Positions 1-46,622 of a DNA stretch of 46,622 nt are shown one piece after another. The DNA lies in IMG/VR virus record IMGVR_UViG_3300018080_000260, positions 1 to 46,622 of that record; one strand, 5' to 3'. The translations under genes and the position numbers were made by a program. The first letter of the stretch is position 1. Every line of letters begins with the position of its first letter. Below the pieces are notes generated by a model. That model had not been told where the DNA came from, ran no database searches, and worked only from the letters and a program-made list of their open reading frames with translations. This DNA is from a virus.

Positions 1-146
1 CAGGGAATCGTCGATATTATCCAGTCGCCCCAGATGGACATTCAGGGAGTCATCAACATTGTCCAACCGCCCAAGGTGGACCTGAAGGGAGTCATCGATG
101 TTATCCAGCCGCCCCAGGTGGACCGCCAGGGAATCGTCCAGGTCGT
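1..146 (-). repeat. 42-bp in-frame tandem repeat (14 residues) in the tail-fibre gene
   Basis: Three full 42-bp units (1-42, 43-84, 85-126) and one partial unit (127-146) follow each other without spacers, and more may lie beyond the edge. Each encodes 14 residues with the core VHLGRLDN(I/V)DDSL; only one to three residues vary. Hydrophobic positions are regularly spaced (L, I/V, L, V, L), which suits a trimeric coiled or beta-helical shaft. The lack of spacers and the preserved frame rule out CRISPR. Confidence 0.9.
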
Positions 147-978
147 CCACGGTTAAAAGTTCTGCGTCACTGATCGACCCGTCACTCCCATAGGCCGTAC
201 CAGAAATCTGAACCCAGTTGGCCAACACCCCTCCAATGGCGGTCCCTGTTCCGTCTGTCAGTGTGTCCGCGGTCAGTTTAATGGGTCTCAAATTGCCAGT
301 GGGAGTAATATAGGCCCTGACGTCAGAGCCAGGCGTGACGTTCTGTCTCCACTCATAATTGTCGTTATTATCCCCTCCGGCGTCATGGTTCGGCCCTGCG
401 TACCAATGGCTTTCCGACGCAGTGCTTGGATCAAAAAAAATGAACCCATCATCACCAACAATCTCTGTAAAGCTATTCACCTCCAGGGTCCCTGCGACGT
501 CCAGCCCGTTGGCTGACAGGCTGATGTACCCAAGAGTCATGTCAAGCTTTATGATTTTACCACCGTCATCGGTCATATATATTTCGTCGTTATCAATCAT
601 GACACAGGCGGTATCAACGAGTTCATTGAGTGTGGACCGATTAAGATTGACGGTGGTGTCCACAATGGCTATCCAGGCCGTATTGTTTCCAGACCCTTCG
701 AACGTGGCCATGTGGGACGTTAGGGTGTCCACATCCAAAGACGTAATAAGGAGGGGATCCCCGACCATAAAAAACTGATCCCAGGACGTGCCAGTGCCCA
801 CATAGCACCCTCCTGAATAGCGCATAGTAAAGCCTGCTCTGTGGGTCCAGGGACCACTGGAAGAGTCGGCCACAAGGGGAAAATTGGGCATTCTGAGGCC
901 GAACGGCCTTATATCCTGCTGCGCGAACAGCCCCGACACCACCAGGAGGAAAATCAGAGAAAATAGCAGTTTTTTCAT
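1..978 (-). CDS. Secreted tail-fibre-like protein, C-terminus cut by the window edge
   Basis: I read this reading frame directly from the sequence; it is open from an ATG at 978 to the window edge (326 codons). GGAGGGCATT precedes the ATG. The protein begins MKKLLFSLIFLLVVSGLFAQ, a clear Sec-type signal peptide. The middle is glycine-, aspartate- and threonine-rich and predicted beta-rich, as in fibre proteins. It then enters 14-residue repeats (VHLGRLDNIDDSL plus one variable residue) at the truncated end. It is the last visible gene of the leftward late operon, 11 bp after the preceding secreted protein. Fibre or spike function is inferred from position and composition. No enzymatic motif is visible. 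The export signal is odd for a virion protein. Confidence 0.7.
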   Translation of the reverse strand, partial: MKKLLFSLIFLLVVSGLFAQQDIRPFGLRMPNFPLVADSSSGPWTHRAGFTMRYSGGCYVGTGTSWDQFFMVGDPLLITSLDVDTLTSHMATFEGSGNNTAWIAIVDTTVNLNRSTLNELVDTACVMIDNDEIYMTDDGGKIIKLDMTLGYISLSANGLDVAGTLEVNSFTEIVGDDGFIFFDPSTASESHWYAGPNHDAGGDNNDNYEWRQNVTPGSDVRAYITPTGNLRPIKLTADTLTDGTGTAIGGVLANWVQISGTAYGSDGSISDAELLTVDDLDDSLAVHLGRLDNIDDSLQVHLGRLDNVDDSLNVHLGRLDNIDDSL

Positions 979-1532: not shown

Positions 1533-1565
1533 TCCTTCCTCCTGTGAATTGTCTGTGTGTCTTAC

Positions 1566-7500: not shown

Positions 7501-10500
7501 GCAGAAGCATAGAGGACACGGGCCTTGGGGAGCAGGTTCTCCTGCAGATCAACCACCGTAAGACCGGTCTGGGTAGGCTTCTTCAATCCCTTGCCAGTGA
7601 ACGCATTCTTGGCCTTGTGGCCTTCGTCGAAAACAATAACACCATCCGGCCCGAGCCATTCCACCAGCTGATCCAATCGATTCTTCTTGATGAGAGTGGC
7701 GTAAGTACAGAAAATACAACCGTCACCCATTTGTACCGGGCCCTTGGAAGGCGCGACTTTTTTATCATTCAGGACGCCCAGGGGAATGATATGGTCAATT
7801 CCCAAACCTTCCTTTTCTCCAAAGTCTCTCGCTGCGTCATCGGCCAGGTCCTTACTGTATGACAGCCATACGGCACGACGACGACCATGATTCCAGTTAT
7901 CAAGGATTGTGGCTGCAATCTGAATCCCTTTACCTACACCGGTCCCATCACCCAGGGAAAAGCCCATACGGTGCCCGCTTGGAAGCATAATATCGTGACA
8001 TTGGCCAGCCAGAGACACGGCTTCTAACTGCAGGGCAGAAATAATGGGATTTTTCATCCCTTTCAGGTCGGGTTTGTATTTGATGTCCGGGGTTTCAATG
8101 GCAGCCATGGAAGAAGATTCCACGATCTTGCCAGGGTGGGCTTTACCGCCTTTTAACTTGGAAGGAACATAATCGACGAATTTACCAGCGGATTCCTCTT
8201 GTCGCTTCTGCCTGCGCTCGTAATCCGTCTCAAACTGTACATTTACTCCAGGCCCGCCAGGGCTGCCAGTAGGTTCTGGGCCAGGCGCAGCTGGTTCTGC
8301 TTCTGGTTCTTCAACAGATTCGGATCGTTCAGCGGACTCTGATCCACGTTCTGTGCCAACTGCAGGACTTGGCGCTTCAGGGACGGATCGTTCTCCAGGT
8401 TCTCGATCCACCTGTCCACCACGTCCAGGGGAGGTAGTTGAAGTTCCTCCGCCTCCGCTTCCAGCTGTGCCGGATCCTCCTCCGCGACCGCCTGATACGC
8501 GCTCTTTAGGAGATGCCACAGGTTCTGTTCCAGCCTTGTCAGTGTCACTTTCTTCTGTGGCTGCTGTTGCAGGCTGGGCTGCAGCGGAGATGGCGGCTCT
8601 TGTTGGGATGTTTTCGATACTTTCAAGGACTTCCTCCAGACTCTGGTGTTCAGCGACATAGGTTTCGTCAGATATTGCCTCTGAGAATCTTGAACGCTGA
8701 ACTTTGTCGATTACCAGATAAATTGTACCAAAATTCGTGCCATATTTACGATACGCCTCTTTGGGATTTTTTATCATCGCCTGGACGGTGTACTCTTTCC
8801 CCAGGTTGTTATACCAATCTTGTGCGATCTGTCTGTCTGGCCATGCGGATTCACCCAGAATGGCCACCAAACGGCCCCCGGGAGCCAGTCGGCGCAATGC
8901 TTGGTCTATATGGCGGAATCCATACTTGGCGCTGTTTTTGCTCTTGCTGAGACGACCACCAGTAGAGGAGAAGGGAGGATTCATAATAATGGCCGTTGGC
9001 CGAACATCATCCGGAAGGACATCGTCAAGAATTTCTGCGTCGAATCCTGCGTTCTTTTGGTAAAGCGGTTTCAAGTTTAGTCTGTCCAGAACGGCTGTAC
9101 GTGATTCGTCAATCTCGTTGGTTATGACATCGGCAAACGGCTGAACGGTTACGGCCAGATTCCCAGTACCAGCTGAAGGTTCCAGGATAATATCGTCTTT
9201 TTGTACGTCCAGCATAAGACCGGCTGCATAGGCCATGGCCGGGGGAGTGCTAAACTGTTGAAAATCATCCTTTTCGGCTGTCCGGTGTGTTTGAGTTGGA
9301 ATGCGTTTTTGTAGATCTATCAGTTTGTCAAGAAGTTCTTTTCTTTTCTCTGGGCTTATTTTCTTCCGAATCCGGTAGAAAGTATTGTCCACTTCTTCAA
9401 CACTGGGTTCATGTTCGGTTATCAGCTCCCGGACATACTTATTTACCCCTTCTTCCAGGGCATTATACATATCCTGGCTCTGGAAGATGCCGTCAGCTCT
9501 CTTTCCTCCGAATGCTCTCTCGGCCATTCTGTTGAGAGCTGGATTGTCTTTAATGACGCCTCCGGCCTTCATCAGTTTATAAACTTCGTCAGCAAGGATG
9601 CCTTGAGGGTTATTGTATTTGTCTATCAGAGCTTCACCCTCTCCCTTCTTCGGGATCACAGATCCACGATCCTTTGTCAAGTCGGAAGGTTTGAACCCTT
9701 CTTCTGGCTCTTGGCTTTCTCCCTTCTCAACATTCTTGACAATGTTGTTTATTTTCCCCTGGGAACCCCAATCTATATTGTCCCAATACTCTACTGCGAG
9801 TTTCATTGCTTCATTGGACGTTTTTGCTTCCCCAACAACTGTTTCTTTGTCGCCTTCTTGGTGGATAACCTTAACGACTTGGTCTTTCGTTCCGGCATTA
9901 AACTTGGATATATAAACCGCATTATCAACTATCTTAGGATCAAAATCATCCAGCCACGCATAGGGAGTCTGAGGTAAAGCCTGGGGGTCGAACGTAAAAC
10001 GATGCTTATAATTCGTCTCTACCGGCGCCTCGGCTTTCACTTCCGGGATCTGTGGACTTTCTTCCTGTTTCGGCTGCTCGGGACGCTGCTTCTGTTTTTC
10101 TGTCTCCTGGGCATGCTGTTTGGCCTCAGATAATGAAGACAGCCAGTCCTGCATGGCTGTTTCTTCTTTTTTCTGGCCTGTCTGCTGGAATGCTCCGGCC
10201 AATCGCTGCATTACAGAGGTGTATTCTTGTTCACCATATAAGATTTCGCCTAATGCCTCTGCTCCCTTAAAAAACTCTCCCCTGCCTACATTTCGATGAT
10301 GTCTATACATCTGCTGTCTGGCACTGGGAATCATCTCGTTAATCTTGCGCTGCTCTCTTGTCCCTTTCTTTTCCAGGTCTGCAAGAATACTATAAAGCCT
10401 ATCTTTAGCCTTTGGATCTCCGCGCCATCTATTGTGAAGCTGTTGGAGTTCATTGATGGGATTCTGCTCCTGGATGGTCATAGCTTCTTCCCACCAGTCT

Positions 10501-11699
10501 ACATATTCCTGTCTCTCTGCAGGAGACATTTCATAAAGAACATCCCTAAGAGTATCCCAATCCTCCTCTGACGGCTCGATTTCCTCCCATTCTTCACGCT
10601 GGTACGCATCGCCCAGGACGTCCTGAATATCCGCATTGATCTTCTTTTGTGAATTCTCCAGAATCTGTCGGGTTATTTCTTCCGGAACTCCATGCTGACG
10701 CAGGTCTGAGACACCCTTGTCGATCGCGACGGACGTGCCACCACCGACGATCGCGCCGATCAGCCCTTCGTAGAGTACGTTTTTGATGATTTCCCACGCA
10801 GATTCCGATCGAATCCCGGCAAAGTTGGCAATTCCTGAGTCAGCTGCAGACTGCAGCATTTCCTGAATAGCCTCCTCTGCCGTCTTGATCAGAGTACTCC
10901 GCAGTACGCTTCCGTATGATTTTAAGAAGATATCCAGGCCGACCTTTTCCAGAGCGCCTTCGGCAAAGCCAGAACCAGAAGATATGTCTCCGGCCTTCTC
11001 AGGATCCATGCCTGTTGCCCGGGCCTCCTGGTACATCCGTGATTTCTGCATCACACCGAACAGGGCAGCTGCAGCCATGGGGCTTTTTGTGGCTGCAGAA
11101 ATACCCACGGCCATGGCCAAAGACGCGCCTCCAGATCCAATATCCTCAAAAAATCGCTGATATCGTCTGTCACCCCTGGGGAACATAGAGGAGACCTTTT
11201 CCAGGTTCTTCTGGGCCACTTGAGTTCCCATCTGAACCATGGATTCATCCAAGGAGGACCGTTTCGCAAGGGAGGCAATGCCCTTTCTGGCCAGAACGTA
11301 GCTCTCTCCAATGAACGGTACGACTTTCGAAACTGCAGATGGAACGGCCGTGTCCGGATCCAGCTCCGCACGTTCTCCCATTTCCTGCAGGATCCCACCG
11401 GCCACAGAGGGGAGGGAGGCGAACATTCTGCCTGCGCCCCTGCCGAGACTGGTTCCGGCTTCTCCTACGGTCTTGGCCACATCCGCAATGCCCCTGCCCA
11501 TCTTCCTGGCCATCATATTGAGTGGACCGCCTTCCGGCCTCGCCTGCGGAGAAAAACGGGTTTCCAGAGCCTCAGAGAGCTGCTCATCGTCATATTGCGC
11601 ATAGGACGGATACTTAGTCCTGATTGCCTGCAAGATCTTGGCATCTGGATATTTAGAATACTCTGGATGCGCGTTTTTGAACTGGGTTAAAGGCTTCAC
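1566..11699 (-). CDS. Giant polyvalent virion protein: methyltransferase, strawberry-notch-type helicase, zincin, LPD38-like
   Basis: 3377 residues from a GTG start that overlaps the upstream TGA (GTGA). Visible in order: an N-terminal part with Gly/Ala-rich hydrophobic helices (about 60-330) as in ejection proteins; an N6-adenine methyltransferase with motif I EPSAGTGNL (about 840) and NPPF (about 907); a Gly/Pro/Glu-rich linker (about 1060-1155); a superfamily 2 helicase of strawberry-notch type with Walker A GDGTGVGKG (about 1250), DEGH (about 1358), SAT and QQFGRGHRSNQ (about 1759); a zincin HETAHW (about 2321) with a downstream GEGFAEF glutamate; and an LPD38-like end (RNVIRDAIEA, about 2875; later ISPAQFEYF). 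Methyltransferase plus helicase resembles DarB of phage P1, which is packaged and protects entering DNA from restriction. By analogy this is an internal virion protein injected with the DNA. Injection and anti-restriction are inferred; the domains are seen. Confidence 0.9.
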   Translation of the reverse strand: MKPLTQFKNAHPEYSKYPDAKILQAIRTKYPSYAQYDDEQLSEALETRFSPQARPEGGPLNMMARKMGRGIADVAKTVGEAGTSLGRGAGRMFASLPSVAGGILQEMGERAELDPDTAVPSAVSKVVPFIGESYVLARKGIASLAKRSSLDESMVQMGTQVAQKNLEKVSSMFPRGDRRYQRFFEDIGSGGASLAMAVGISAATKSPMAAAALFGVMQKSRMYQEARATGMDPEKAGDISSGSGFAEGALEKVGLDIFLKSYGSVLRSTLIKTAEEAIQEMLQSAADSGIANFAGIRSESAWEIIKNVLYEGLIGAIVGGGTSVAIDKGVSDLRQHGVPEEITRQILENSQKKINADIQDVLGDAYQREEWEEIEPSEEDWDTLRDVLYEMSPAERQEYVDWWEEAMTIQEQNPINELQQLHNRWRGDPKAKDRLYSILADLEKKGTREQRKINEMIPSARQQMYRHHRNVGRGEFFKGAEALGEILYGEQEYTSVMQRLAGAFQQTGQKKEETAMQDWLSSLSEAKQHAQETEKQKQRPEQPKQEESPQIPEVKAEAPVETNYKHRFTFDPQALPQTPYAWLDDFDPKIVDNAVYISKFNAGTKDQVVKVIHQEGDKETVVGEAKTSNEAMKLAVEYWDNIDWGSQGKINNIVKNVEKGESQEPEEGFKPSDLTKDRGSVIPKKGEGEALIDKYNNPQGILADEVYKLMKAGGVIKDNPALNRMAERAFGGKRADGIFQSQDMYNALEEGVNKYVRELITEHEPSVEEVDNTFYRIRKKISPEKRKELLDKLIDLQKRIPTQTHRTAEKDDFQQFSTPPAMAYAAGLMLDVQKDDIILEPSAGTGNLAVTVQPFADVITNEIDESRTAVLDRLNLKPLYQKNAGFDAEILDDVLPDDVRPTAIIMNPPFSSTGGRLSKSKNSAKYGFRHIDQALRRLAPGGRLVAILGESAWPDRQIAQDWYNNLGKEYTVQAMIKNPKEAYRKYGTNFGTIYLVIDKVQRSRFSEAISDETYVAEHQSLEEVLESIENIPTRAAISAAAQPATAATEESDTDKAGTEPVASPKERVSGGRGGGSGTAGSGGGGTSTTSPGRGGQVDREPGERSVPEAPSPAVGTERGSESAERSESVEEPEAEPAAPGPEPTGSPGGPGVNVQFETDYERRQKRQEESAGKFVDYVPSKLKGGKAHPGKIVESSSMAAIETPDIKYKPDLKGMKNPIISALQLEAVSLAGQCHDIMLPSGHRMGFSLGDGTGVGKGIQIAATILDNWNHGRRRAVWLSYSKDLADDAARDFGEKEGLGIDHIIPLGVLNDKKVAPSKGPVQMGDGCIFCTYATLIKKNRLDQLVEWLGPDGVIVFDEGHKAKNAFTGKGLKKPTQTGLTVVDLQENLLPKARVLYASATGATELANMGYMVRLGLWGEGTQFDSFEDFISEVNTGGMGAMEMVARDLKAQGKYLARSLSYEGVKYTEVKGKMTPKQREVWNSSAEIWRTIVNNIGAAIEATNAGKKQRSLAIRMLWGNHQRFARQMIMAFKVPTIIKQTEAQLKKENSVIIGLFGTGEAALKRAVQERLEQGEDLEALDLTPRQMIGNYLENCFPVNLFQEEQDSNGNVVHKPVIGPDGKPVQSKLALQLRQRLMDSLSDLNLPDNPMDQIIKYFDDKADKTGDETWRVAELTGRKKVLRVNKNTGKKEWVRRGPAGSQSASKWEEENFQSGKKRIAIVSAAASQGISLHASRRAKNQQKRVFITMELSWSADQQMQQFGRGHRSNQAQPPEYIILTMDLGGESRFSSTIAKRLGSLGALTRGQRGSAGSGDVLDKYDYSSDYGSLAVAALYTSLLNGQEVPGIDNPIQTLLNMNVVYMDEYGSYKINEGDKTNINKFLNRILVLDADEQNALHEHYHEIFSALVEDAKEKGVFDDGVEDLVSKQIRLINRTEIRKDKAVGATTEHIEMERDVQTTPLKWEDAEKMLQAGFDVHKNTHSGHYVITKEAATKTDPETGRIQRRFYEYRYTGAREITSHADLQAKFKPVKKENKDFKAWWEKHVKEYPAIRTEEVHLIAGMILPLWNRMKSNVHGAPLKIVRATTVDGQRFVGVRIPNKAVDAVLSAIGVNRKLETPEQVYNAVMNSRKPVELENGIQLMRRYWQGGDIIELIGTKTPMRDTLRKLGILYERVQFKDMFYIPGVEEKALDIIKKLTDRWAVANQSSPSFGSTSMLRIPASDLGQGQPRPKGASDLRHSDMETKKPRQDMYRSSELIDYHQDRTGAKGMSSNDLAGGFRALFPEITFRAKMQDRWRRDKMGEINSDRNMIKGRNFASPVADFHETAHWFQNQIFGDYRDNELRWLEKGATPDMMNELRDLDYDQNKRRTGEGFAEFVRLWISDSGAEAFAPMFTRYFETSVLPEYDKSGRFWKAKQMVGSFVAQDAVEFTKSQLGFHRPRTNAARTKEKVRQFKQAPSEVRKKKVGSAWSKFKSKFSDSAAEIQYLLKSTLGDRYHSLPARLNPITVFRAYNMKAGAMAEQMLNHGVYDIRTGMGMDLSKGAVQTLRECDQEGYQIQDLITYLYARHAIDWIHHPELDENVDIVNGDTDLGFLDEQERIKIFKEARRKVQMLKPKNPGISLAQAKAVVERLGNSHFERWGDEINNYFDQLMQLVYHEGGVSNATLKYFRWRHPHYVPFLREIAHDVVWESRHGKKGMANQNKPYMRAKGSDYPWQYYMDAWIKHTERVVLWATKARVMNAFASFAHLQGMAPLIRETDPPPEVTKHSVKEIVGLLTKMGADISNKNQMLEIEGDTLVEFWHNGVHVKKGRPIVSVWRNGKRAFYELHPDLFNFIQSIEAAPLVGIAKVMAPFCRGIRLGATGLNPNFILLRNVIRDAIEATVMSESGKAHPFRSIQGLLAEIYKDKDILPVALKKLGVDPEYADLYMKAGGVVSTMAGFDRTKLEKMARLAESNIKGKTIQFGLQHPIEGLRLLFSAFENTNRIPEFKAVYEKVMNQTGDPEEAFIRAARASQDITTDFARAGYWGRQLNQIIPFYNANVQGFSKFIRGFFGKEITGYHGKYQAESSRKNAGKRMAKALGWITGLSLLSYFLRDDEEWEKLNDWERANYFHFWVNGDHLKVVTPFLLGAVFHGGLHAALLEGIGDRQADEEYLRFLWDQHFSELLPLPTSWPFVSTIMEIKANRSWSGRPIEPKYARQTQEAWTIANEWTTELSKSIMAFKPLRSTGISPAQFEYFVNQTTGGFYRRTIGAADRLIIKNLMGKNVKDRPAGLWDIPIIGDLFARPSTMNNRLTARFFSAYSDAMKRQHSENRHPYHNLLENTYKKIVAVRRRSNYPDERKDKKVMELIEKAVDHMESKKPDVPARRSSTEKRRESYVF

Positions 11700-13322: not shown

Positions 13323-13592
13323 TTAGCCGGGTAATTCGGGCAGGGCGAATCCGCCTTCCTCTGCGGCATCCTCACACTGTTTGATAAAGAGATTCAGAGC
13401 CATGTCGTCGTACGGCGTTGACGAACTGTGGACCAGTTTTTCGAGCCAGATCTTGGCCTCGATATAGCCTGACTGAATGGCCTTGATCTGGGTTTCATTC
13501 AGTTCTTCACCCTTGACAATGGAGTCCAGGGCTGCGGAAGCCAGCTCTTTAATGCTTCCAATGACCATCGGTAAAAATACGGAAAAGTCCAT
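13323..13592 (-). CDS. Small helical protein of the lysis/internal-protein region
   Basis: 89 residues starting MDFSVFLPMV. I prefer this ATG because GGAGGCAAAA precedes it at ideal spacing; an in-frame ATG four codons upstream sits inside the ribosome binding site. The N-terminal half is amphipathic and may associate with membranes, followed by acidic helices. No known family is recognised. It follows the 103-residue membrane protein gene, with the recurring AAGGCACACAG motif just upstream of its ribosome binding site. Confidence 0.65.
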   Translation of the reverse strand: MDFSVFLPMVIGSIKELASAALDSIVKGEELNETQIKAIQSGYIEAKIWLEKLVHSSSTPYDDMALNLFIKQCEDAAEEGGFALPELPG

Positions 13593-13618
13593 TTTTGCCT
13601 CCAATCTGTCTGTGTGCC

Positions 13619-13930
13619 TTAGTTGTTCTTCTTTTCTTTGCGCCGTTCCCTTCTTTCTTCCCGGCGTTTTAGACGTTCTTCTTTACGGAGAGCCTTTATC
13701 AGCTCCCGTTCGTGTTCAGTTACTACTGCGACCATCTTCGTGCCCTTTGGCGCCTTCGCTGCGCGGATTCCTTTTGCCACCAATCCGGCAGCTGACAGTC
13801 CCAGTCCGGTCTTTACCATAAAGGCGCTGACCGGCTGCAGGAAGGGAACTTGTCCAACGGCGCACCCTGCAACCGCCACTGCGATACCTCCCAAGAACTT
13901 GGGGATCCGCTTCAAAAATCCCAGTTTCAT
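13619..13930 (-). CDS. Small membrane protein with basic tail, holin candidate
   Basis: 103 residues with two short hydrophobic segments (about 12-28 and 36-52) and a very basic C-terminal tail (LKRREERRERRKEKKNN). AGGAGG precedes the ATG. The start overlaps the stop of the NlpC/P60 hydrolase gene (ATGA). Two membrane segments, a charged tail and linkage to a peptidoglycan hydrolase fit a class II holin. The segments are Gly/Ala-rich and short, so a different membrane role is possible. Confidence 0.6.
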   Translation of the reverse strand: MKLGFLKRIPKFLGGIAVAVAGCAVGQVPFLQPVSAFMVKTGLGLSAAGLVAKGIRAAKAPKGTKMVAVVTEHERELIKALRKEERLKRREERRERRKEKKNN

Positions 13931-21316: not shown

Positions 21317-21356
21317 TGTTTTTTTACCTCATGTTTGATCTTTCTCGTTACCAAGG

Positions 21357-21386
21357 CCCGGAGGCAGCGTTTAAGCCGCCCCCGGG
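21357..21386 (-). other. 12-bp GC-rich hairpin downstream of the major capsid gene
   Basis: On minus-strand RNA, CCCGGGGGCGGC pairs with GCTGCCTCCGGG around a six-base loop, with two G-U pairs that exist only in the minus-sense RNA. No T-run follows (CCTTGGTAACG), so it is less likely a full terminator than an mRNA-stabilising or attenuating structure between capsid and accessory genes. Confidence 0.6.
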
Positions 21387-21409
21387 GTCAGTAATGGAGG
21401 AGAAGATGA

Positions 21410-22660
21410 TTACATGGACGGTTCTTCCGCCCAGGTCACGAATACGGCGGATCCGTAGTTCTTGACATAGGCCCCACGGGTTCCGTCGTCGTCGTTCCAG
21501 GAATCAGCCCGGGAGTAGCCTTCGACCACACGGTAGGCAATACCCAGGATTTCCTCATAGTCCCGGGTGCGCTGCTTGTACTCAAAGGCGTTCCCGGTCG
21601 CCTTGTACAGGGCGTTATTGCCGATAACCACACCTGCGAACTTCTGGTAGGTGCTGTAAGACCGGAAAGACTGGAGATTGGTGATGGTGCTGGGTCCCCA
21701 GATCGGCTTGCCGGTCGTCCCGCTGACAGACACGGGCCAGGCTGCGGTATCGCTCACGAAAATGGCGAATCCTCCCCAGAAGTATTTGCAGCCGGTGATC
21801 ATCGGGTTGTCCTTGGCCATTTGCTGTGCATACACCGTAGCAGCTGGCACGTTGAACTTGGGATCCTGCTCCAACGTGTGGATCTGATAGGGATGCACAA
21901 CCATCAGCCAGAACTCATTCCCGTCCTTGGCGATAATGGGATCAATCTCCTGCATGGTCTGGTGTGACTTGAGACCGGACAGGAAATTGGTGTCATAGAT
22001 GTTGGTATCGTTCATGGCATTGAGTGCCGTGCCGATATTCGTCTCGTAGTTGGCGGTTCCGGGGTAGTCCGAGACGCCATAGCTGACTTTCCCCTGTCCG
22101 GCCAGGAAAATGTGGGGATGGCTGATCGCCTTGATCGTCGAATGGCCGGAGAAACGAACAGACCCAAGGATATTCCGGCTGAAGCCGTAGAATAGGGACC
22201 ATCCGCAGCCGAGAAATTCTTCGACCTGCGCATAGTGACGGACCAGCTGAGGTTTGGAGTTGAGAATAAACTGGTAATCCTTGGTGGTCTGCGTCATCAT
22301 AATGCCCTCTTGGGGCTGGACGGCATGGCGAACGATGTCGATAGGCACGACGGCATGATTGACAAATTGCTCCTCTTCGAAGCCTTCCATCTGATCGCGC
22401 CCATAGGTGGGCAGATTGACAAGGTTCCGAAGCATGGGAATTTTCATTTCGTCGCCCATCGTCCGTTCCAGTTCGTGCTGCATGACAATGGGAGAGGCAA
22501 TAGGCTTGGGGATATTGCCTTTGCGGACCACCACTTTGGCCTTGGGCGCATTGAACTTGGCGAATTTGCCCCAGAAGTGATGCTCCAGCACTTCCCACTT
22601 CATCTGTGCAGCCAGTATTTTCGGAACATTCCCGGTGAAGGAACGATCTATAATGGCCAT
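21410..22660 (-). CDS. Major capsid protein, N4-gp56 family
   Basis: 416 residues. Features of the N4-gp56-type HK97-fold capsid family are visible: an N-terminal arm (FTGNVPKILAAQMKWEVLE), the conserved region LPTYGRDQMEGFEEEQFVNH followed by VVPIDIVRHAV, and a C-terminal region ending in FVTWAEEPSM. AAGGAGG precedes the ATG at good spacing. It lies directly downstream of the scaffold-like and portal genes, the expected head-module order. The main shell subunit role is well supported; the exact subfamily is from recall of family patterns. Confidence 0.9.
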   Translation of the reverse strand: MAIIDRSFTGNVPKILAAQMKWEVLEHHFWGKFAKFNAPKAKVVVRKGNIPKPIASPIVMQHELERTMGDEMKIPMLRNLVNLPTYGRDQMEGFEEEQFVNHAVVPIDIVRHAVQPQEGIMMTQTTKDYQFILNSKPQLVRHYAQVEEFLGCGWSLFYGFSRNILGSVRFSGHSTIKAISHPHIFLAGQGKVSYGVSDYPGTANYETNIGTALNAMNDTNIYDTNFLSGLKSHQTMQEIDPIIAKDGNEFWLMVVHPYQIHTLEQDPKFNVPAATVYAQQMAKDNPMITGCKYFWGGFAIFVSDTAAWPVSVSGTTGKPIWGPSTITNLQSFRSYSTYQKFAGVVIGNNALYKATGNAFEYKQRTRDYEEILGIAYRVVEGYSRADSWNDDDGTRGAYVKNYGSAVFVTWAEEPSM

Positions 22661-22727
22661 GAAGTGTCCTCCTTACGATTTCGAACGGGAGGACAGAAAA
22701 AGGCGAAGGGGGATGAAGCTCCCATAT

Positions 22728-22774
22728 CTGTGTGCCTTTCTTTCAGCTGGCGGTCTGCCAGGACGGACCAGCTG
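22728..22774 (-). ncRNA. Conserved stem-loop element, copy B (before the capsid gene)
   Basis: In the untranslated gap between scaffold and capsid genes, CAGCTGG pairs with CCAGCTG around a 17-base loop containing CCGTCCTGGCAGACC on the minus strand, followed by AAGAAAGGCACACAGA. The same 15-base loop core and trailing AGGCACACAGA occur at 39634-39683, where the stem bases differ but still pair. A constant loop with different paired arms indicates a functional RNA structure. Its role is unknown; antitermination or protein binding is inferred. Confidence 0.65.
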
Positions 22775-22786
22775 TACAGTCAGAGA

Positions 22787-23770
22787 CTATCCTGTCTCCC
22801 CGTTGAGTTCTTGTTTGAGCCGTTCAGCAAGCGCCTCTGGCCCCAGGCTGTTTATTTCTACCTGAGAGAGGGATGCTGTCGGCCTGAATTCACCACCCTT
22901 CGGGCCTTCACCTGCAGGAGCGCCTTCTAACTTGGATCCGGCTCCGGCTGCATTATTGATAGAACTGATTGCCTCCTGTCTGCCTTGGCGTATTTTGCCG
23001 GACAGAACCTTATTCTTGTTGTATCTCAGATACAGAGTTGAGAAGGTGTCGTAGGTTACGGATCCGTCCTGTTCCTGAAACCTGGAAGGATTCGCCTCGA
23101 TCGCCTGACGCACCTTAGCAAATTCAGGAGAATTGAAGACTTGTTTCACGTTCTCCGGCTGCTGGTCCCAGGGAATACCGGGATCCACTTGAATACCCAG
23201 GTCGTCATTGACAAATTGCAGGAAGCTGAGAGAAGTGGTCTGATAGGCCAGCTGTGCAGCCTGAGCCTCCTCCTTCTGAACTTCTGCATCATAGCTTGCC
23301 TGATCGACCTTGTATTGGTCCATCGCACGGACAGCCTTTACGTATTCGTCTGGATCCTCGTCTCTCAGTTCCTGCAGCTCCGCTTCTGAATATTGCCGCG
23401 GCTGCACCGGCTTTTTCATCTCGCGCATCTGTCTTCGAAGCTCGGCATTCTCCGCTCTGACGGTTGCCAGCTCCTGTGATCTGGCATGAAAAGCCCGTTG
23501 GGTGTTGCTCAGCCTATCATCGGATTCTTCGCCGGGTTTGCCTTCGGGAGTTCCTTCCGGAGCCTCGGGCGTACCGTCACCAGAGGGCGAACCTTTGTCC
23601 GCATCCGATTCCTCTGGCTCTTTAGGAGCCTTTTGGAGAGTTCCATCGTCATTGATAACCATGGAGTCCAACGTCTCCTTATCCAAATCGTTGACATTCT
23701 GCCCTTCCAGTCCGGGAGTTCCGTCTTGTTCGGAGCCGGGCTGTTGCTGGTTGTTATTTTCACCAGACAT
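22787..23770 (-). CDS. Capsid scaffolding-like protein
   Basis: 327 residues from MSGENNNQQQ. This ATG is chosen because GGAGG lies six bases upstream; an ATG four codons earlier overlaps the ribosome binding site. The N-terminal third is acidic, Pro/Gly-rich and disordered. It is followed by a coiled coil (ELATVRAENAELRRQMREMK) and a helical region with DPDEYVKAVRAMDQYK. The C-terminus is helical (PEALAERLKQELNG). This architecture and the position between portal and capsid are typical of scaffold proteins. Scaffold function is inferred from these features; no protease motif is visible. Confidence 0.8.
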   Translation of the reverse strand: MSGENNNQQQPGSEQDGTPGLEGQNVNDLDKETLDSMVINDDGTLQKAPKEPEESDADKGSPSGDGTPEAPEGTPEGKPGEESDDRLSNTQRAFHARSQELATVRAENAELRRQMREMKKPVQPRQYSEAELQELRDEDPDEYVKAVRAMDQYKVDQASYDAEVQKEEAQAAQLAYQTTSLSFLQFVNDDLGIQVDPGIPWDQQPENVKQVFNSPEFAKVRQAIEANPSRFQEQDGSVTYDTFSTLYLRYNKNKVLSGKIRQGRQEAISSINNAAGAGSKLEGAPAGEGPKGGEFRPTASLSQVEINSLGPEALAERLKQELNGETG

Positions 23771-23829
23771 TATTGCCTCCATCTTTGCGGGTCCACGTAG
23801 GAGAGTCCGCTTATGATTATGCAGGAATA

Positions 23830-35454: not shown

Positions 35455-35594
35455 GATCTTATCTCCTATGCGTTACCTCCCCGCAGGCCCGGGAAGCAGC
35501 CCCAGAAAGCACTGCTCGTCCGAACTCACTGCTCCTCCGGGCCACGCGTACAATCAGGAGGGATCCAGGGGGGAAGGGGGCTAAAAACCCTGGA
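35455..35594 (-). other. Non-coding interval with two hairpins
   Basis: No gene is evident. On the minus strand GATCCAGGG (35596-35588) pairs with CCCTGGATC (35570-35562) at the end of the 161-residue gene. A larger hairpin is formed by GGCCCGG and CCGGGCC (35486-35492 with 35537-35543) extended by AGCAG/CTGCT. These look like attenuator or processing structures before the secreted-protein gene. Confidence 0.5.
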
Positions 35595-36080
35595 TCAATT
35601 CTCGATGGTGTCCTCGTCGGATCCGAACGGATTATCGTCGTCAGTGTCTGGCGGAGGAGTATCTTCCGACTCTGGCGATTCCCCGTCACCATCGGCCCTG
35701 GATTCTTCGTTCAGGTCCAGCCCGGTCTGCCGTTCACTCGGATGCAACTCACGGCTGAACAGGACTTCACCTGTATCCTCACGGACCCGGGTGAATTCGT
35801 TGTCCTCAACATTGATGGTCTCTTTCACTGATACCGGACGATCCTCTTTCTTTGTGATCAGTTTCTGCCGGAGAGTGGACGCCTCCTCCTGCAGCAATTT
35901 GATTTCTTCTTTCCGGGAGGAAGTGACGGACTTCAGCTCCGCAACCCTGTCATGTATCTGTACCTGAATTTGCGAGAAGCGTATGGCCACATCTGTCAGT
36001 TCGGAATCGGTCAACTGACAAGGCAGCATGGCCATCTCAAATATGACCTGTGGAAGAACTTTCTGTTTTTTACTCGGCAT
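35595..36080 (-). CDS. Coiled-coil acidic hypothetical protein of the recombination operon
   Basis: 161 residues. Residues about 35-75 form a charged coiled coil (DRVAELKSVTSSRKEEIKLL), followed by a small motif FTRVREDTGEVLFSRELHPS seen in many phage recombination-region proteins, and a disordered acidic tail. GGAGG lies upstream, and the start overlaps the preceding gene by 11 bases. Function unknown. Confidence 0.6.
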   Translation of the reverse strand: MPSKKQKVLPQVIFEMAMLPCQLTDSELTDVAIRFSQIQVQIHDRVAELKSVTSSRKEEIKLLQEEASTLRQKLITKKEDRPVSVKETINVEDNEFTRVREDTGEVLFSRELHPSERQTGLDLNEESRADGDGESPESEDTPPPDTDDDNPFGSDEDTIEN

Positions 36081-36351: not shown

Positions 36352-37224
36352 TCACTCCTTCAAATTTGTAGTGAGAGGCTTGAGGCCTTCAGCAAGGTTG
36401 CTCTCATGGGGGAGGCCAGGTCGCTTCTTTGCAGAGTCTGGCTTTCCGGCTTTTACCGCATGGACATATGTGGCCCATTCCCTCATTTCTCGAAACGCAC
36501 GAGGATTGAGATTCTTCTTGTTCCGGGTAAACTCCTTCATGGGATGCAGATGAAGGGCCAGCAAAAAGATGTAGAAGCAGCTGTCCATTTCGGTATTAGC
36601 CAGCGGATGATGGTTGAACGCGCCGGTTTCCTTGTCAAGCTGGAGGATATGGACTTCGTTGAGCTTCTCCTGGAAAAAACCCTCATAAAGACGCCGATAG
36701 GCAGCCACCTGGATTTTATGGTCGATGTACACACCCTTGGAGGTTTTCAAATCCAACAGACACAGCTTTCCGTCAATCCGAGCGATCACATCGATCGTAC
36801 CGCCGTACAAGAGCTGGTCCGATACGATCTGAACCTCAGAGTGAATGTATTCCGGCTTGAACCGTTTCTCCCAATCCAGAAAACCAAGAAACCCATTTTC
36901 TGCCTTGTCGATGTCGTTGGGAGCAAAATCACCGAGATCCGGCTCCCATCCGTTGATATGGCATTCCACCAGGAAGTGGGCAATGGATCCCACGTCGGCT
37001 GCTTTATCACGAACAGCGAAGGGATCCCTACCAGCTTTGGTTTCCTTCACGGCCCAGTACATCAGCACGTTTTTATTCCAACCCAGGTTGTTGAGAATCG
37101 TGGTCACACCGGAAACACGAAGCCCCCATGACGTTTTGTAGATCTGGTGAGGCTTGGTTTTGTCCAGCTTCACGACCTGTTTTTCTGTGGTCGTAGCCGG
37201 GGCGGTGATAGTGGCTCCGCTCAT
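36352..37224 (-). CDS. PD-(D/E)XK exonuclease of the recombination module
   Basis: 290 residues. The RecB/Cas4-like nuclease core is visible: GSIAHFLVE with His83, Glu130, GGTID (Asp145), LLDLKTSK (Asp158, Lys160), then Gln172 and Tyr176. The ATG overlaps the ERF stop (ATGA), so it is coupled to the annealing protein. Together they form a two-component recombination pair comparable to lambda Exo/Bet: resection by this enzyme, annealing by ERF. Confidence 0.88.
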   Translation of the reverse strand: MSGATITAPATTTEKQVVKLDKTKPHQIYKTSWGLRVSGVTTILNNLGWNKNVLMYWAVKETKAGRDPFAVRDKAADVGSIAHFLVECHINGWEPDLGDFAPNDIDKAENGFLGFLDWEKRFKPEYIHSEVQIVSDQLLYGGTIDVIARIDGKLCLLDLKTSKGVYIDHKIQVAAYRRLYEGFFQEKLNEVHILQLDKETGAFNHHPLANTEMDSCFYIFLLALHLHPMKEFTRNKKNLNPRAFREMREWATYVHAVKAGKPDSAKKRPGLPHESNLAEGLKPLTTNLKE

Positions 37225-38177
37225 GCTGCCCTCCCTTCTTTCGTTCCGCCATTACGCTCAAAGGCATCAATCTGAGTCTCCAGCTTCAAAAACAGATGGT
37301 GCATATGCTTGGGCGGCATTCCGGTTAAGTTGTTATGGAGTTTTTTGGTCTGTTTCAAGAGGATCTGGGCAAACTTTTTCTCGTCACCGTCAGAGAGATA
37401 GAGCAGGTAATCAAAGATACGATTGTGTTCGACTTCCAGCTGCTCTTTGGAGGGAAGGGCTGACGAATCGGACGAAGCCGAGGCGCTGTCCTGTTTGTTC
37501 CCGGCAGAGGATTTGTTCGAAGCCTTGGAAGAACCCTCAGATCCCTGTTTGTTATTGGAAGACTGTTTTCCTTCCCCGTCATCATCGTCGGCAGGAGCCA
37601 GACAGAGAATGCACATGATGGAATATCTGCGGAGATAGGTAATGACTGATCCCATCTTCTGGGGGTCTTTAGATGGGGTCCACTCCCGGGAATTCTCTTT
37701 ACGATAACCGGCGTGCCCCTTCACAGAGCAATGAATATTCTGGCCGGATTTATGCCCCAGGATCGTATGGACCAGAACAGTGCCGTCGTTCGCATTCACT
37801 ACTGACGGAAGCTGAATAATACACAGGCCGTTATTGGACAGGGGTTGCCGAACAGCTCGCAGAATAGATGCCGTATCCGCATATCTGCTGTGATAGAACG
37901 GATTTTCATTGTCCTTTTCAACCACTCCAAATTCGCCCTGGGCTTTAGACATGGCCTCATAGAGCTTATCCAGCTTGGTGTTGGAAAAAGTTCCTTCTCC
38001 CAAAATGAGAAAGTTCTCCCCTGTGCCATAACGCTCTTTGATTTTGTCCAAAGGGGAGGGCTGAAACTCCTGAATATGGACCTCCCGGGGTCCGCCATCA
38101 TCTGACGGCTCTGGGGGAACCTGAACATCTGCCCCTGATCCCTGGGGTTCGGGCTGTTTCTTCTGTTCTCCTGGCAT
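37221..38177 (-). CDS. erf: ERF-family single-strand annealing protein
   Basis: 318 residues. The ERF core spans about 68-202: LYEAMSKAQGEFGVVEKD, then FYHSRYADTASILRAVRQPL, and KMGSVITYLRRYSIMCILCL followed by acidic ADDDDGE. A Ser/Asn/Lys-rich linker (205-250) and a helical C-terminal domain follow, as in ERF proteins that form rings on single-stranded DNA. AAGGAGG precedes the ATG. Confidence 0.92.
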   Translation of the reverse strand: MPGEQKKQPEPQGSGADVQVPPEPSDDGGPREVHIQEFQPSPLDKIKERYGTGENFLILGEGTFSNTKLDKLYEAMSKAQGEFGVVEKDNENPFYHSRYADTASILRAVRQPLSNNGLCIIQLPSVVNANDGTVLVHTILGHKSGQNIHCSVKGHAGYRKENSREWTPSKDPQKMGSVITYLRRYSIMCILCLAPADDDDGEGKQSSNNKQGSEGSSKASNKSSAGNKQDSASASSDSSALPSKEQLEVEHNRIFDYLLYLSDGDEKKFAQILLKQTKKLHNNLTGMPPKHMHHLFLKLETQIDAFERNGGTKEGRAA

Positions 38178-38192
38178 AGATCTGCCTCCTTT

Positions 38193-38435
38193 TTACTGTG
38201 TGCCTTGGTTGAGAATACGCTCTGCTTCTCGTTCTATATCGAAAACAGGCTTTATTTTCTGTCCAAAATGGGTTAGGAAATGATCCACGGCTGCCTTGGC
38301 CCAGTACCTGCCTTTCCCATTGACCAGGACCGGATCGGGAAAACAGGGGAGGGCAATCATCTGGTCTGTAATGGCGAACGACTTGCCAAAATATACTTTA
38401 AGGTCGTTTCTATTCATCAGTGCAGGCAAATCCAT
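38193..38435 (-). CDS. Small AlpA/excisionase-like DNA-binding protein
   Basis: 80 residues. NRNDLKVYFGKSFAITDQMI and GKGRYWAKAAVDHFLTHFG fit the MerR/AlpA-like winged helix-turn-helix seen in phage excisionases. AGAGGAACCC precedes the ATG. Position near the start of the leftward early operon, with attP and integrase nearby, suits an excisionase or an early regulator. Assignment is tentative because such domains are short. Confidence 0.6.
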   Translation of the reverse strand: MDLPALMNRNDLKVYFGKSFAITDQMIALPCFPDPVLVNGKGRYWAKAAVDHFLTHFGQKIKPVFDIEREAERILNQGTQ

Positions 38436-38444
38436 GGGTTCCTC

Positions 38445-38738
38445 TTATCGTTTTTCCAGCTCTTCTGGGCCCTTTGGGTATTTTGGGGCCCCTTCTGGGC
38501 CCTCTGGGTATTTTGGGGCCCCCTCTGGCTCCGCCTTCCATGGAGGAGGAACAAGACAGGGGCATGCCCCGGGAAAGAAGCCTCGATCGATACATTCAAC
38601 TAAATAACCACAAGTCATAGGGTTGCCAGCTTTGAAGATCCGGCGAGCAACATAGTGGGCCAGAGGCAGGAAAGGATTCAAGAAGATCACCACCAGGGCA
38701 ATGAATAAGTGTTTGTTACAAAACTCACGTCTTGTCAT
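38445..38738 (-). CDS. Membrane protein with Pro-rich decamer repeats
   Basis: 97 residues from MTRREFCNKH, chosen for GGAG six bases upstream and because it no longer overlaps the preceding gene. The N-terminus has one hydrophobic segment (LFIALVVIFLNPFLPLAHY). The C-terminus carries two near-identical decamers (PEGAPKYPEG, PEGAPKYPKG) from a 30-bp DNA repeat. Three Cys lie in between. Function unknown. Confidence 0.55.
   Translation of the reverse strand: MTRREFCNKHLFIALVVIFLNPFLPLAHYVARRIFKAGNPMTCGYLVECIDRGFFPGACPCLVPPPWKAEPEGAPKYPEGPEGAPKYPKGPEELEKR
38462..38521 (-). repeat. 30-bp tandem repeat, two copies
   Basis: Two adjacent 30-bp units (38462-38491 and 38492-38521) differ by one base, and a partial third follows. 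They encode the decamer repeats of the membrane protein. The low divergence suggests recent slippage. Confidence 0.85.
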
Positions 38739-39529: not shown

Positions 39530-39555
39530 ATTTTCTTGACTTGCAGAAAGAAAAT
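39530..39555. promoter_or_regulatory. Operator copy 1
   Basis: Perfect inverted repeat ATTTTCTT-N10-AAGAAAAT. It overlaps the -35 box and spacer of the rightward promoter. A near-identical copy lies at 39720-39745 on the leftward promoter. The likely ligand is the adjacent XRE repressor. Confidence 0.7.
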
Positions 39556-39564
39556 CAGTACAAT
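39536..39564 (+). promoter_or_regulatory. Rightward promoter toward the repressor
   Basis: TTGACT (39536-39541) and TACAAT (39559-39564) with a 17-base spacer, start near 39571. It points toward the repressor gene and faces the leftward promoter 130 bases away, so the two transcripts collide and overlap. The repressor transcript would carry a long leader that is antisense to the stem-loop element. Confidence 0.75.
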
Positions 39565-39620
39565 ACAAATACAGGCGAAGGGGCCTGAAACGACGAAGGG
39601 AGAAATCTTTTTGTCGTCAT
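39555..39620 (-). CDS. 21-residue leader peptide candidate
   Basis: ATG at 39620 directly after AAAGGAGGCG, ending in TGA at 39555-39557: MTTKRFLPSSFQAPSPVFVL plus Tyr. It lies in the leader of the leftward early transcript, after the stem-loop element and 37 bases before the first regulatory gene. The ribosome binding site is strong but only two bases from the ATG. It could be an attenuation or coupling peptide, or not be translated usefully. Confidence 0.35.
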   Translation of the reverse strand: MTTKRFLPSSFQAPSPVFVLY

Positions 39621-39633
39621 CGCCTCCTTTAGT

Positions 39634-39683
39634 CTGTGTGCCTACTTCCCGCTGCCGGTCTGCCAGGACGGGGCAGCGGGAAG
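39634..39683 (-). ncRNA. Conserved stem-loop element, copy A (leader of the leftward early transcript)
   Basis: CTTCCCGCTGCC (39683-39672 on the minus strand) pairs perfectly with GGCAGCGGGAAG (39656-39645) around the loop CCGTCCTGGCAGACC, followed by TAGGCACACAGA. It begins about 21 bases after the predicted leftward start, the place where lambdoid nut or HK022 put elements sit. Copy B at 22728-22774 keeps the loop and trailing motif but has a different, still paired stem. Confidence 0.7.
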
Positions 39684-39710
39684 GCTTTATTAACAACATA
39701 CCTTCAGTCG

Positions 39711-39739
39711 AATATAATCATTTTCTTTTGGGAAGTCAA
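39711..39739 (-). promoter_or_regulatory. Leftward early promoter
   Basis: On the minus strand TTGACT (39739-39734) and TATATT (39716-39711) with a 17-base spacer; start near 39704. It drives the early operon leftward. Its -35 and spacer region closely match those of the rightward promoter (TTTTCTTGACTT...AAAGAAAAT), so both are probably bound by the same repressor. Confidence 0.8.
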
Positions 39740-39745
39740 GAAAAA
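39720..39745. promoter_or_regulatory. Operator copy 2
   Basis: ATTTTCTT-N10-AAGAAAAA, one mismatch from perfect symmetry, overlapping the -35 box and spacer of the leftward promoter. It matches operator copy 1 at 39530-39555. Confidence 0.7.
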
Positions 39746-39797: not shown

Positions 39798-40220
39798 ATG
39801 GATAAATTAGCGGAAAAAATTCTGCTTTACAGAAAAGAGAAGAAATTAAATCAGAAAAAATTCGCTAAGCAGATCGGAATAAGCGATAAAACCCTAAGTA
39901 AAATTGAAGCAGGAGAGTCAGTACATAAAAATACTTTAGTTTACGTTGAAAGACAGCTGGAACATCTTTTGTCACCTCGTAAAGAACACAAGAGAGGGCA
40001 AAGGGACGGTGCTTTTATTAATTTTACTGAGGAAGAAGCGTTATTCCTCATACAGCTGAGAATGATTAGTAACGGATCGCCAGAATTATCGCTTACAAAG
40101 GAGTCAATAACACGACTGACAAAAATTAGCCGGTCACTTGAAAACGATAAAAACTTACAGCAGGCATTTTTTGACTTTGTGGAAAAACTACATGGCAAAC
40201 GTAGTCCAAAACAAAAGTAG
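39798..40220 (+). CDS. XRE-family phage repressor
   Basis: 140 residues; AAAGGA precedes the ATG. Residues about 8-58 form an XRE helix-turn-helix (KKLNQKKFAKQIGISDKTLS then KIEAG). The C-terminal half is helical. There is no S24 LexA-like self-cleaving peptidase domain, so induction would not use RecA-stimulated cleavage. It lies beside two operator copies and transcribes with a membrane protein and integrase, the standard lysogeny layout. Base composition is more AT-rich than neighbouring genes. Confidence 0.85.
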   Translation: MDKLAEKILLYRKEKKLNQKKFAKQIGISDKTLSKIEAGESVHKNTLVYVERQLEHLLSPRKEHKRGQRDGAFINFTEEEALFLIQLRMISNGSPELSLTKESITRLTKISRSLENDKNLQQAFFDFVEKLHGKRSPKQK

Positions 40221-41783: not shown

Positions 41784-41984
41784 ATGGAAAAACAAATTGT
41801 CAAACAGGACGGAGCAACGGAGGCAGTGGTGTTTGAAGTTTTTAAATATATCCGTAAGATTGCTGAGGATTACAGGGGGGAGACGCCAGGGACAAGGAAA
41901 TCGGCCACGAAAGACGACCTCCTGAAGCTCTACCATGAAGTGGATCTGGTTGTAAGGTCGGGGAGGGATCCGACAAAAAAGTGA
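41784..41984 (+). CDS. Small hypothetical protein between integrase and attP
   Basis: 66 residues; AAGGAGAGGAGAGG lies upstream. It is helical and charged (FEVFKYIRKIAEDYRGETPG). Its stop lies inside the first attP arm repeat. The 70 bases before it hold AAGTGTC...GACACTT arms and TTTAATAT, a possible weak promoter. No family is recognised; a recombination directionality role is conceivable from position. Confidence 0.6.
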   Translation: MEKQIVKQDGATEAVVFEVFKYIRKIAEDYRGETPGTRKSATKDDLLKLYHEVDLVVRSGRDPTKK

Positions 41985-42242
41985 CAAACAGGTGACAAAT
42001 TTCCATGACAAACAGGTGACAAATGCAAGCTGGAGGAAGCTAGAGGAAGGGGATCCAATTATAGAGGACGTGGTCAATTTACTATACTGAAAAACAGGCA
42101 TTTATGAGCTGATCAAATTGATCAGCCGAATAACTGGGGGTCATGAGGTCGAGAGTTCAAATCTCTCCGCCCCGACTAAAAAACAGGCAGTTAAGTACAC
42201 CAACTTGACTGCCTGTTTTCTTATGACAAACAGATGACAATT
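41982..42242. other. Phage attachment site attP with arm-type repeats and tRNA 3' end
   Basis: Two 19-base copies TGACAAACAGGTGACAAAT (41982-42000 and 42006-42024) lie on one side, and TGACAAACAGATGACAAT (42224-42241) on the other. Between them is a 17-bp palindrome CTGATCAA-A-TTGATCAG (42109-42125) and the tRNA 3' segment whose T-arm GAGAG-TTCAAAT-CTCTC (42151-42167) and acceptor strand CGCCCCGA (42168-42175) are clear. CTGGGGGTC before it suggests tRNA-Pro. The 5' half of the tRNA is missing. Arm repeats on both sides of one core define attP, not a hybrid junction. Confidence 0.8.
42180..42219 (-). terminator. Strong intrinsic terminator of the late operon
   Basis: AAAACAGGCAGT (42180-42191) and ACTGCCTGTTTT (42208-42219) are perfect 12-bp complements with a 16-base loop; on the minus strand six T follow (CCTGTTTTTTAG). 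It ends the leftward tail/Acb2 transcripts just before the attP core, and it can also stop rightward transcripts from the integrase side. Confidence 0.85.
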
Positions 42243-45573: not shown

Positions 45574-46622
45574 CTACTTCCTCTTGCCGTTCACCGACAG
45601 TATTTTGCCAGCATCTTTGCCATTAATTTTGCCAGGCACCTTGCCATTCATTCTGTGGGCCCAGCCTTCCTCCTCCGCCCCTGTACTCGCCTCTATTGTT
45701 ACTGATTTTTGATAAACCCGATCTGTTCCGTCTGCATTGCAATAAGTGACGATTACATTATAAGCTGATCCTGCGTGTCCCGTTACTGTAATCTTGCCGG
45801 TCGTACAGGCAGACCCCTCGAACTTGAGACTGTCAACAACGGCTGAGATTACACCGGACTCGTTTACCGTGCGCGTTTTGAGCCACCCATAGCCATCACC
45901 GTCTACACCAATATAGGCAAACACGTCACCGGCAACATGCTTCAGATCGTGGAGGGTTTCCGTGACGTTGGTTACCAGGGTATCGACCGGAGGCCCGTCT
46001 GCGCCCCCTGTTATAACCCCAGCATTCGATATTTCAACCGTGCCGAACTCAATAGGATTGACCGCAACATAATTTGATCCAAACAGATAATAGTCTGAGC
46101 CTTCTTTCCAGTCGATACAAGTATTTGTAGGAGTGTAGTCGTCTTCATATTTAAGGGTATCCACAGCACCTTCAGACGCACCCGTTCCGTGGGTGAATCG
46201 CCACGTATAAACGACCCCATTTCCAGAGCCAGATCGACCCGCTATTATTGCCGTAGAGCTGGTATCTTCTGCGACACACAAATCGCTTGCTCCATCCACA
46301 GACCCAGAAGAATACTCCACAAGAGCATTGATTGTAAGGTCGCCTGTTGTTCTATTATAATACCCACTTCGAAGCCACCCATCACCTCCGTCAGACTCAT
46401 TCTGCCCCTGCACAAAAAAGATAGTATCGCCCTCGACCTTAGCCAGTTGAGAATATCGCCAGTCATCTATTGCACTAATAGCCAACTGTTCAACGGTTCC
46501 GCCCAACGTTCCGGCAGCTGAGTCCGTTTCGTAGCACTCGATATAAGAAAGGGCATCAGTATCATAGCAGACAACCGAATAATCACCGCCCTGGATCGTG
46601 AAGGCATCATATATCTGCTCAA
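45574..46622 (-). CDS. Beta-propeller-like tail protein, N-terminus cut by the window edge
   Basis: The frame is open from the window edge to TAG at 45574; the visible part has about 348 residues. About five degenerate repeats of 45-55 residues (for example SQLAKVEGDTIFFVQGQNE, DLKHVAGDVFAYIGVDGDG, GWLKTRTVNESGVISAVVDS) suggest blades of a beta-propeller. The C-terminus carries MNGKVPGKINGKDAGKILSV, a short NGK-type repeat seen at the ends of many phage tail and fibre proteins. It lies upstream of the acidic protein and fibre. Receptor-binding or tail-tip function is inferred. Confidence 0.65.
   Translation of the reverse strand, partial: EQIYDAFTIQGGDYSVVCYDTDALSYIECYETDSAAGTLGGTVEQLAISAIDDWRYSQLAKVEGDTIFFVQGQNESDGGDGWLRSGYYNRTTGDLTINALVEYSSGSVDGASDLCVAEDTSSTAIIAGRSGSGNGVVYTWRFTHGTGASEGAVDTLKYEDDYTPTNTCIDWKEGSDYYLFGSNYVAVNPIEFGTVEISNAGVITGGADGPPVDTLVTNVTETLHDLKHVAGDVFAYIGVDGDGYGWLKTRTVNESGVISAVVDSLKFEGSACTTGKITVTGHAGSAYNVIVTYCNADGTDRVYQKSVTIEASTGAEEEGWAHRMNGKVPGKINGKDAGKILSVNGKRK

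Follow-up and report, generated by a model that had tools for sequence, protein, structure and literature searches.

The antisense RNAs studied well in phages stem from a small number of model systems, mainly enterobacterial, and mostly pair with a single partner message. In lambda, OOP RNA covers a portion of the cII coding sequence, and in plasmid copy-number control of the pT181/pIP501 type the binding of an antisense RNA to a leader frees a terminator hairpin. The established phage antisense RNAs sar, OOP, sas, c4 and aQ each have one main partner; sar of P22 is 68-69 nt long, pairs with the ant mRNA and blocks its translation, and the 77-nt OOP is antisense to cII (PMC12197685). C4 RNA of phages P1 and P7 covers the ribosome binding site (RBS) with its b' loop while its a' loop pairs upstream for specificity (PMC5320573). 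A different kind of regulatory RNA, the put element of HK022, is present in two copies of ~70 nt, each of two stem-loops (PMC9378689). For the locus described here we lean towards a phage antisense RNA of ~122 nt that would act in cis on attenuation and translation, would block Shine-Dalgarno (SD) sequences in trans and would have a partner in the leader of the capsid gene.

The window, 46,622 nucleotides, is the entire virus record IMGVR_UViG_3300018080_000260, with genes almost all on the minus strand. Judged by its gene content the virus is a temperate phage, with a P22-type portal, a Phage_capsid_3 capsid, an Erf recombinase, an integrase and a helix-turn-helix (HTH) repressor. The ends of the window (1-149 and 46546-46622) join in a 42-bp tandem repeat array. 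A twin contig (G001) runs from window positions 46546-46622 through ~950 extra bases with repeat similarity into window base 1, a continuity that makes the record look like a circular genome cut open where a repeat had collapsed. Coordinates of the features are collected in Table 1.

Table 1. Positions in the window of the candidate RNA, its control elements, motif sites and predicted targets.
Feature	Position	Strand	Basis
Candidate small antisense RNA, ~122 nt	39571..39692	+	fold, promoter, U-tract at ends
Candidate seed, anti-SD CCUCC + UCUGUGUGCCU, complementary to motif + SD sites	39619..39645	+	duplex energies, shuffles, opening cost
Terminator-like hairpin (copy A on + strand), stem end ...GGGAAGGC then UUUAUU	39640..39692	+	fold
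Predicted promoter Ps, TTGACT-17-TACAAT	39536..39564	+	consensus match
Predicted promoter PL of the leftward early transcript, TTGACT-17-TATATT, start predicted at ~39704	39711..39739	-	consensus match
Predicted repressor promoter PRM, TTAACA-17-TATAAT	39690..39718	+	11/12, best in genome
Operator TTTTCTT-N10-AAGAAAA over Ps	39531..39554		exact match
Operator TTTTCTT-N10-AAGAAAA over PL	39721..39744		exact match
HTH repressor	39798..40220	+	PF01381
Copy A hairpin + tail, leader of leftward early transcript	39634..39683	-	sequence
Copy B, shortened duplicate of RNA body, capsid-gene leader	22692..22773	-	alignment
Masked terminator-like hairpin, PL leader, CAGGCCCCUUCGCCUG + UAUUUGUAUU	39563..39587	-	pairing probability
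Motif site, copy A: TAGGCACACAGA-N5-GGAGG-CG-ATG	39633..39644	-	sequence reading
Erf motif site AAGGCACACAGT-N5-GGAGG, ahead of the start at 38177	38195..38206	-	duplex -36.0 kcal/mol
Motif site AAGGCACACAGA-N6-GGAGG, upstream of 89-codon lysis-region gene, start 13592	13609..13620	-	duplex -36.6 kcal/mol
Motif site ahead of gene 990-1532, weaker: AAGACACACAGA	1552..1563	-	net pairing energy ~0
Motif site of copy B, AAGGCACACAGA	22727..22738	-	motif match
Predicted target: Erf-type single-strand annealing protein	37221..38177	-	PF04404 4e-26, phrog_2324
Predicted target: major capsid protein	21410..22660	-	PF13252
Predicted target: 89-aa protein adjoining NlpC/P60 protein, lysis region	13323..13592	-	seed pairing

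An earlier note on this DNA had described a stem-loop in two copies with a constant loop. The minus-strand loop CCGTCCTGGCAGACC does occur exactly twice, at 39657-39671 (copy A) and 22752-22766 (copy B), each time inside a perfect stem, and the trailing AGGCACACAGA is present 3' of both hairpins. The positions given for the copies also stand: copy A starts 21 nt past the predicted start of PL, and copy B precedes the major capsid gene, sitting after the stop of gene 22787-23782. The stems had been said to differ while pairing perfectly, of which the pairing holds and the difference only in part, GCTG/CAGC being common to A and B. Those four pairs and one more are identical among the eight inner pairs; the other three show two double compensatory swaps (C-G>G-C and C-G>A-T) and a C-G>U-G wobble. 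Random placement of the same five substitutions keeps all eight pairs with P = 0.006, so that their survival supports the proposed selection on the RNA fold, from two compensatory events.

The likeness of A and B exceeds the hairpin. Positions 39564-39678 align with 22692-22773 across a large internal gap, and the score of the alignment block outside hairpin and tail was reached in 9 of 5000 shuffles. Similarity starts at the end of the plus-strand -10 element. By this alignment, copy B duplicates the copy A region in shortened form.

The fold is favoured on the strand opposite to the lytic genes. On the plus strand the candidate RNA reaches -64.7 kcal/mol, the lowest minimum free energy among all 122-nt windows of both strands of the 46.6 kb, with a z-score of -6.93 and none of 200 shuffles as stable; the same segment on the minus (lytic-sense) strand gives -49.7 (z -4.43). 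Six G-U pairs, which are A-C mismatches on the minus strand, and a GAAA tetraloop are formed on the plus strand only. The RNA would consist of a 5' hairpin CAGGC/GCCUG or, alternatively, a long-range stem, a 12-bp hairpin with the GAAA loop, a linker carrying the seed and a terminator hairpin. Other unusually stable folds of the genome lie on the minus strand at 35481-35602 (z -3.3) and at 21341-21462 (z -4.0), the latter located where the capsid gene ends and a candidate for a terminator or for a processing hairpin.

Promoter and terminator signals are found at the two ends of this fold. Ps is one of five plus-strand matches of at least 10/12 in the genome, transcription from it is predicted to start at 39571, exactly where pairing in the RNA begins, and it has operator and spacing in common with PL. 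Exact dyads of the operator type occur only twice genome-wide, over these two promoters, and the HTH repressor is presumed to bind both; with identical dyads, Ps and PL look co-regulated and convergent. Their predicted transcripts overlap by ~133 nt. At the other end the copy A hairpin read on the plus strand is extended to GCC/GGC and followed by UUUAUU. The U-tract score is highest for this strand and copy, such a tail being absent from the other strand or copy; the tract is short and interrupted after a very stable hairpin, and a simple terminator scan missed it. It is overlapped by the -35 element of PRM, a promoter that would serve the HTH repressor gene. These signals and the fold suggest that the small antisense RNA probably exists. 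Like OOP it would have its own promoter and terminator, both predicted here, and would converge with the early transcript in the immunity region, and unlike OOP it overlaps the early leader. As with sar, a small phage RNA is predicted to shut an RBS in a lytic transcript by antisense pairing; in contrast to sar, its cis target would be the early PL leader, further targets are predicted in trans, and the capsid leader would hold a duplicated partner. The candidate RNA showed no relation in sequence to sar.

The tail of the hairpins is a motif in its own right, dispersed in the genome. When up to one mismatch is allowed, AGGCACACAGA has five sites genome-wide, all on the minus strand. The three beyond copies A and B lie on the sense strand upstream of GGAGG, ~17-30 nt before gene starts. 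All three fall within the 45 nt upstream of starts, regions that make up 4.8% of the minus strand, and chance would place 3/3 in initiation regions with a probability of ~1e-5 (strand included). As a repeated word the motif has an unremarkable count; its position is what stands out. At copy A the motif precedes a 21-codon ORF (start near 39616), read from the sequence. The recurrence of the tail just upstream of the SDs of other genes points to translation and to RNA pairing, and not to RNA polymerase, as what the motif concerns.

This bears on the role that the earlier note had proposed, a put-like RNA that would act in cis against termination, one copy serving the early transcript and the other the late operon. 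In HK022, put RNA contacts the zinc-binding domain of RNA polymerase beta' and suppresses termination. The locus resembles HK022 put as a structured RNA adjoining PL with two related genome copies, the first beginning ~21 nt past the early start, and on the minus strand two stem-loops can be drawn in each of A and B. However, the second stem-loop joins different segments in the two, and the architecture of HK022 put common to both copies was not found. Copy A is just downstream of the early promoter but copy B lies mid-operon before the capsid gene, away from any convincing promoter. The opposite strand is the one favoured by the fold, and the motif recurs at SDs that have no hairpins. For the terminator-like hairpins cited downstream no clear enrichment was seen (6 vs 3.0 +/- 1.6; 15 vs 9.7 +/- 3.6), and those near copy B are mostly on the plus strand. 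By reading, no lambda-type nut boxA (CGCTCTTTA-like) is present from the PL start to the hairpin. A structured regulatory RNA is retained from the earlier note, while an antitermination role of put or nut type is unsupported by the strand preference, the differing second stem-loop and the SD-linked motif sites, and we regard it as very improbable.

The motif sites would also suit a protein that recognises, on the minus strand, both AGGCACACAGA directly ahead of SDs and the constant hairpin loop of the two leaders. Such a protein, of phage or host, would turn translation of a small phage regulon down or up, and the plus-strand fold would be a mere mirror of the leader structure. All five motif sites (5/5) are in sense orientation upstream of genes, the stem varies while loop and tail are constant, and the U-G pair of copy B forms on the minus strand, as this explanation expects. 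It leaves unexplained the plus-strand promoter, the U-tract end and the stronger plus-strand fold, and a candidate RNA-binding protein was recognised in none of the proteins scanned. Protein binding, which the earlier note had given as its alternative, is the main rival and still live, though we think it unlikely.

Pairing of the antisense RNA with other messages was evaluated through its seed. A ranking of the full-length RNA against all leaders was uninformative, since long loose duplexes dominate, and was replaced by seed-only pairing. The seed lies in a 27-nt linker, AUCGCCUCCUUUAGUCUGUGUGCCUAC, exposed when the 5' hairpins form locally, an opening that costs ~14.6 kcal/mol against the closed fold; in the minimum-energy fold it is paired. 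Scored against 50-nt windows of the whole genome on both strands (background -13.8 +/- 4.5), the seed pairs best with its own complement (-53.7), followed by the initiation regions of gene 13592 and of Erf at the energies of Table 1. The fourth-ranked duplex (-35.2) is with 11381-11430 of the plus strand, antisense to coding sequence, and the next gene after 13592 and Erf reaches -25.8. Net of opening, the values are -35.8 for the own complement, -19.5 for 13592, -14.2 for Erf, -4.0 for the next gene and ~0 for gene 1532. No shuffled seed (0/1000) gave two genes at -30 or better. By duplex energies and shuffled seeds, the complementarity in trans to several initiation regions exceeds what chance would give. 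Pairing with the SD by itself yields moderate scores at many genes, and motif-only duplexes at -14 or better are not unusual in number (6 vs a mean of 3.2, maximum 13). Erf and 13592 pair with the RNA beyond motif and SD, an extension that protein recognition leaves unexplained. The layout of the seed, an SD complement plus a specific upstream block, recalls the two-part recognition of C4. RNase P cuts C4 out of a larger transcript, whereas the candidate RNA has its own predicted promoter on the opposite strand. Regulation in trans is a tentative reading of these pairings, less likely than the existence of the antisense RNA.

The leader of the capsid gene is also predicted to pair with the RNA. 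Loop and tail of copy B have full complementarity to the plus-strand RNA, and its leader pairs with the RNA at -102 (80-nt window) or -113 (whole leader), compared with -45 +/- 9.5 for 80-nt genome windows. The exact complementarity covers the RNA terminator loop (-32.5) and the linker (-22.0).

These elements can be assembled into a model in which the copy A hairpin serves as terminator and loop domain of an RNA transcribed rightward from Ps across the early leader. The RNA would be made whenever PL is derepressed and would pair in cis with the PL leader, where its seed covers AGGCACACAGA and the SD, so that translation of the 21-codon leader ORF would be blocked. Folding predictions for the leader give a further effect: hairpin 39587-39572, which has a U-rich tail, is masked in the free leader by the motif-SD strand (probability ~0.01) and forms with probability 0.98-1.0 when 39619-39645 is occupied in silico. 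RNA binding may therefore free this hairpin and attenuate early transcription. Release of a leader terminator by antisense binding is the pT181/pIP501 principle, predicted here for a phage early operon instead and with a weak, 5-bp terminator. In trans, the seed would block the SDs of the Erf recombinase and of the lysis-region gene, and the capsid leader would be a duplicated partner recognised by loop-loop (kissing) contact. We propose such pairing as the reason why loop and tail stay constant while the stem drifts. The paired part of copy B has no SD, which suggests control of capsid mRNA processing or stability, or titration of the RNA late in infection. Overall the RNA would be a brake on lytic genes. 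A wider version, doubtful in our view, would have the RNA, under the operator of the early promoter, control the whole lytic programme by early attenuation in cis and by silencing of the recombinase and the lysis-region gene in trans through the shared SD-adjacent site; late in infection the duplicate of its own target in the capsid leader would titrate it, with capsid mRNA as the release signal.

Stable stems stand where the early transcript begins and directly before the capsid gene, and the motif adjoins the SD at four sites; this could also be read without any RNA acting in trans. The hairpins would then be duplicated 5' stabilisers or RNase III processing sites and the motif an SD-adjacent translation enhancer. 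Neither an exact 15-nt loop on a changed stem nor a plus-strand promoter and a terminator-like end is expected from such elements, and we hold this explanation to be quite unlikely.

If the antisense RNA exists, the case differs from the established ones by combining an antisense RNA on the early leader, a short target site repeated at other gene starts and a duplicated partner in the leader of a structural gene. Dispersal of that site would have let the phage gather a small regulon under one RNA, with a structural-gene mRNA perhaps serving as sponge. The sequence by itself suggests a complete RNA circuit in a virus with no sequenced relatives in the collections searched. The sole other copy of the element is in the twin contig, 99.99% identical across 29.5 kb. 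Searches with terminase, portal, capsid and repressor yielded no independent relatives, only the twin or terminases and capsids of ~19-31% identity, and the capsid loci of the latter have no similar leader. In IMG/VR the 15-mer of the hairpin loop is found in 74 contigs, with stem and tail in this virus and its twin only; one contig has the 15-mer in a wobble-containing stem, judged to be chance. Among 84,980 prokaryote genomes the loop + tail pattern gave two matches, in Streptomyces and in an Acidobacteria MAG, judged chance at the expected rate; the flanks of the Streptomyces match were inspected and the stem is absent. The motif + SD pattern matched 13 contigs of IMG/VR, none but the twin with the SD-start layout and several copies, and the operator pattern gave 64 single matches with no common leader. 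No Rfam family matched at the gathering threshold and none was plausible at E up to 10, the C4 RNA model being unmatched.

Other features of the genome were noted. The early region has two near-identical 30-nt copies head to tail at 38462-38521 (CTTCTGGGCCCTTTGGGTATTTTGGGGCCC). The distal end of the structural operon is a single 3377-aa ORF (1566-11699, minus strand), which recalls the giant proteins of Bcep22-like podophages. Near the integrase, 42110-42170 (minus strand) resembles the 3' half of a tRNA, with GAGAGTTCAAATCTCTCCGCCCCGAC on the plus strand, which we take to be tRNA-Pro-like; ARAGORN found no complete tRNA there, and the segment is a probable attachment site. Repeated TGACAAACAGGTGACAAAT units at 41971-42242, between the integrase and a tail-fibre-like gene, are possibly recombination arm sites.
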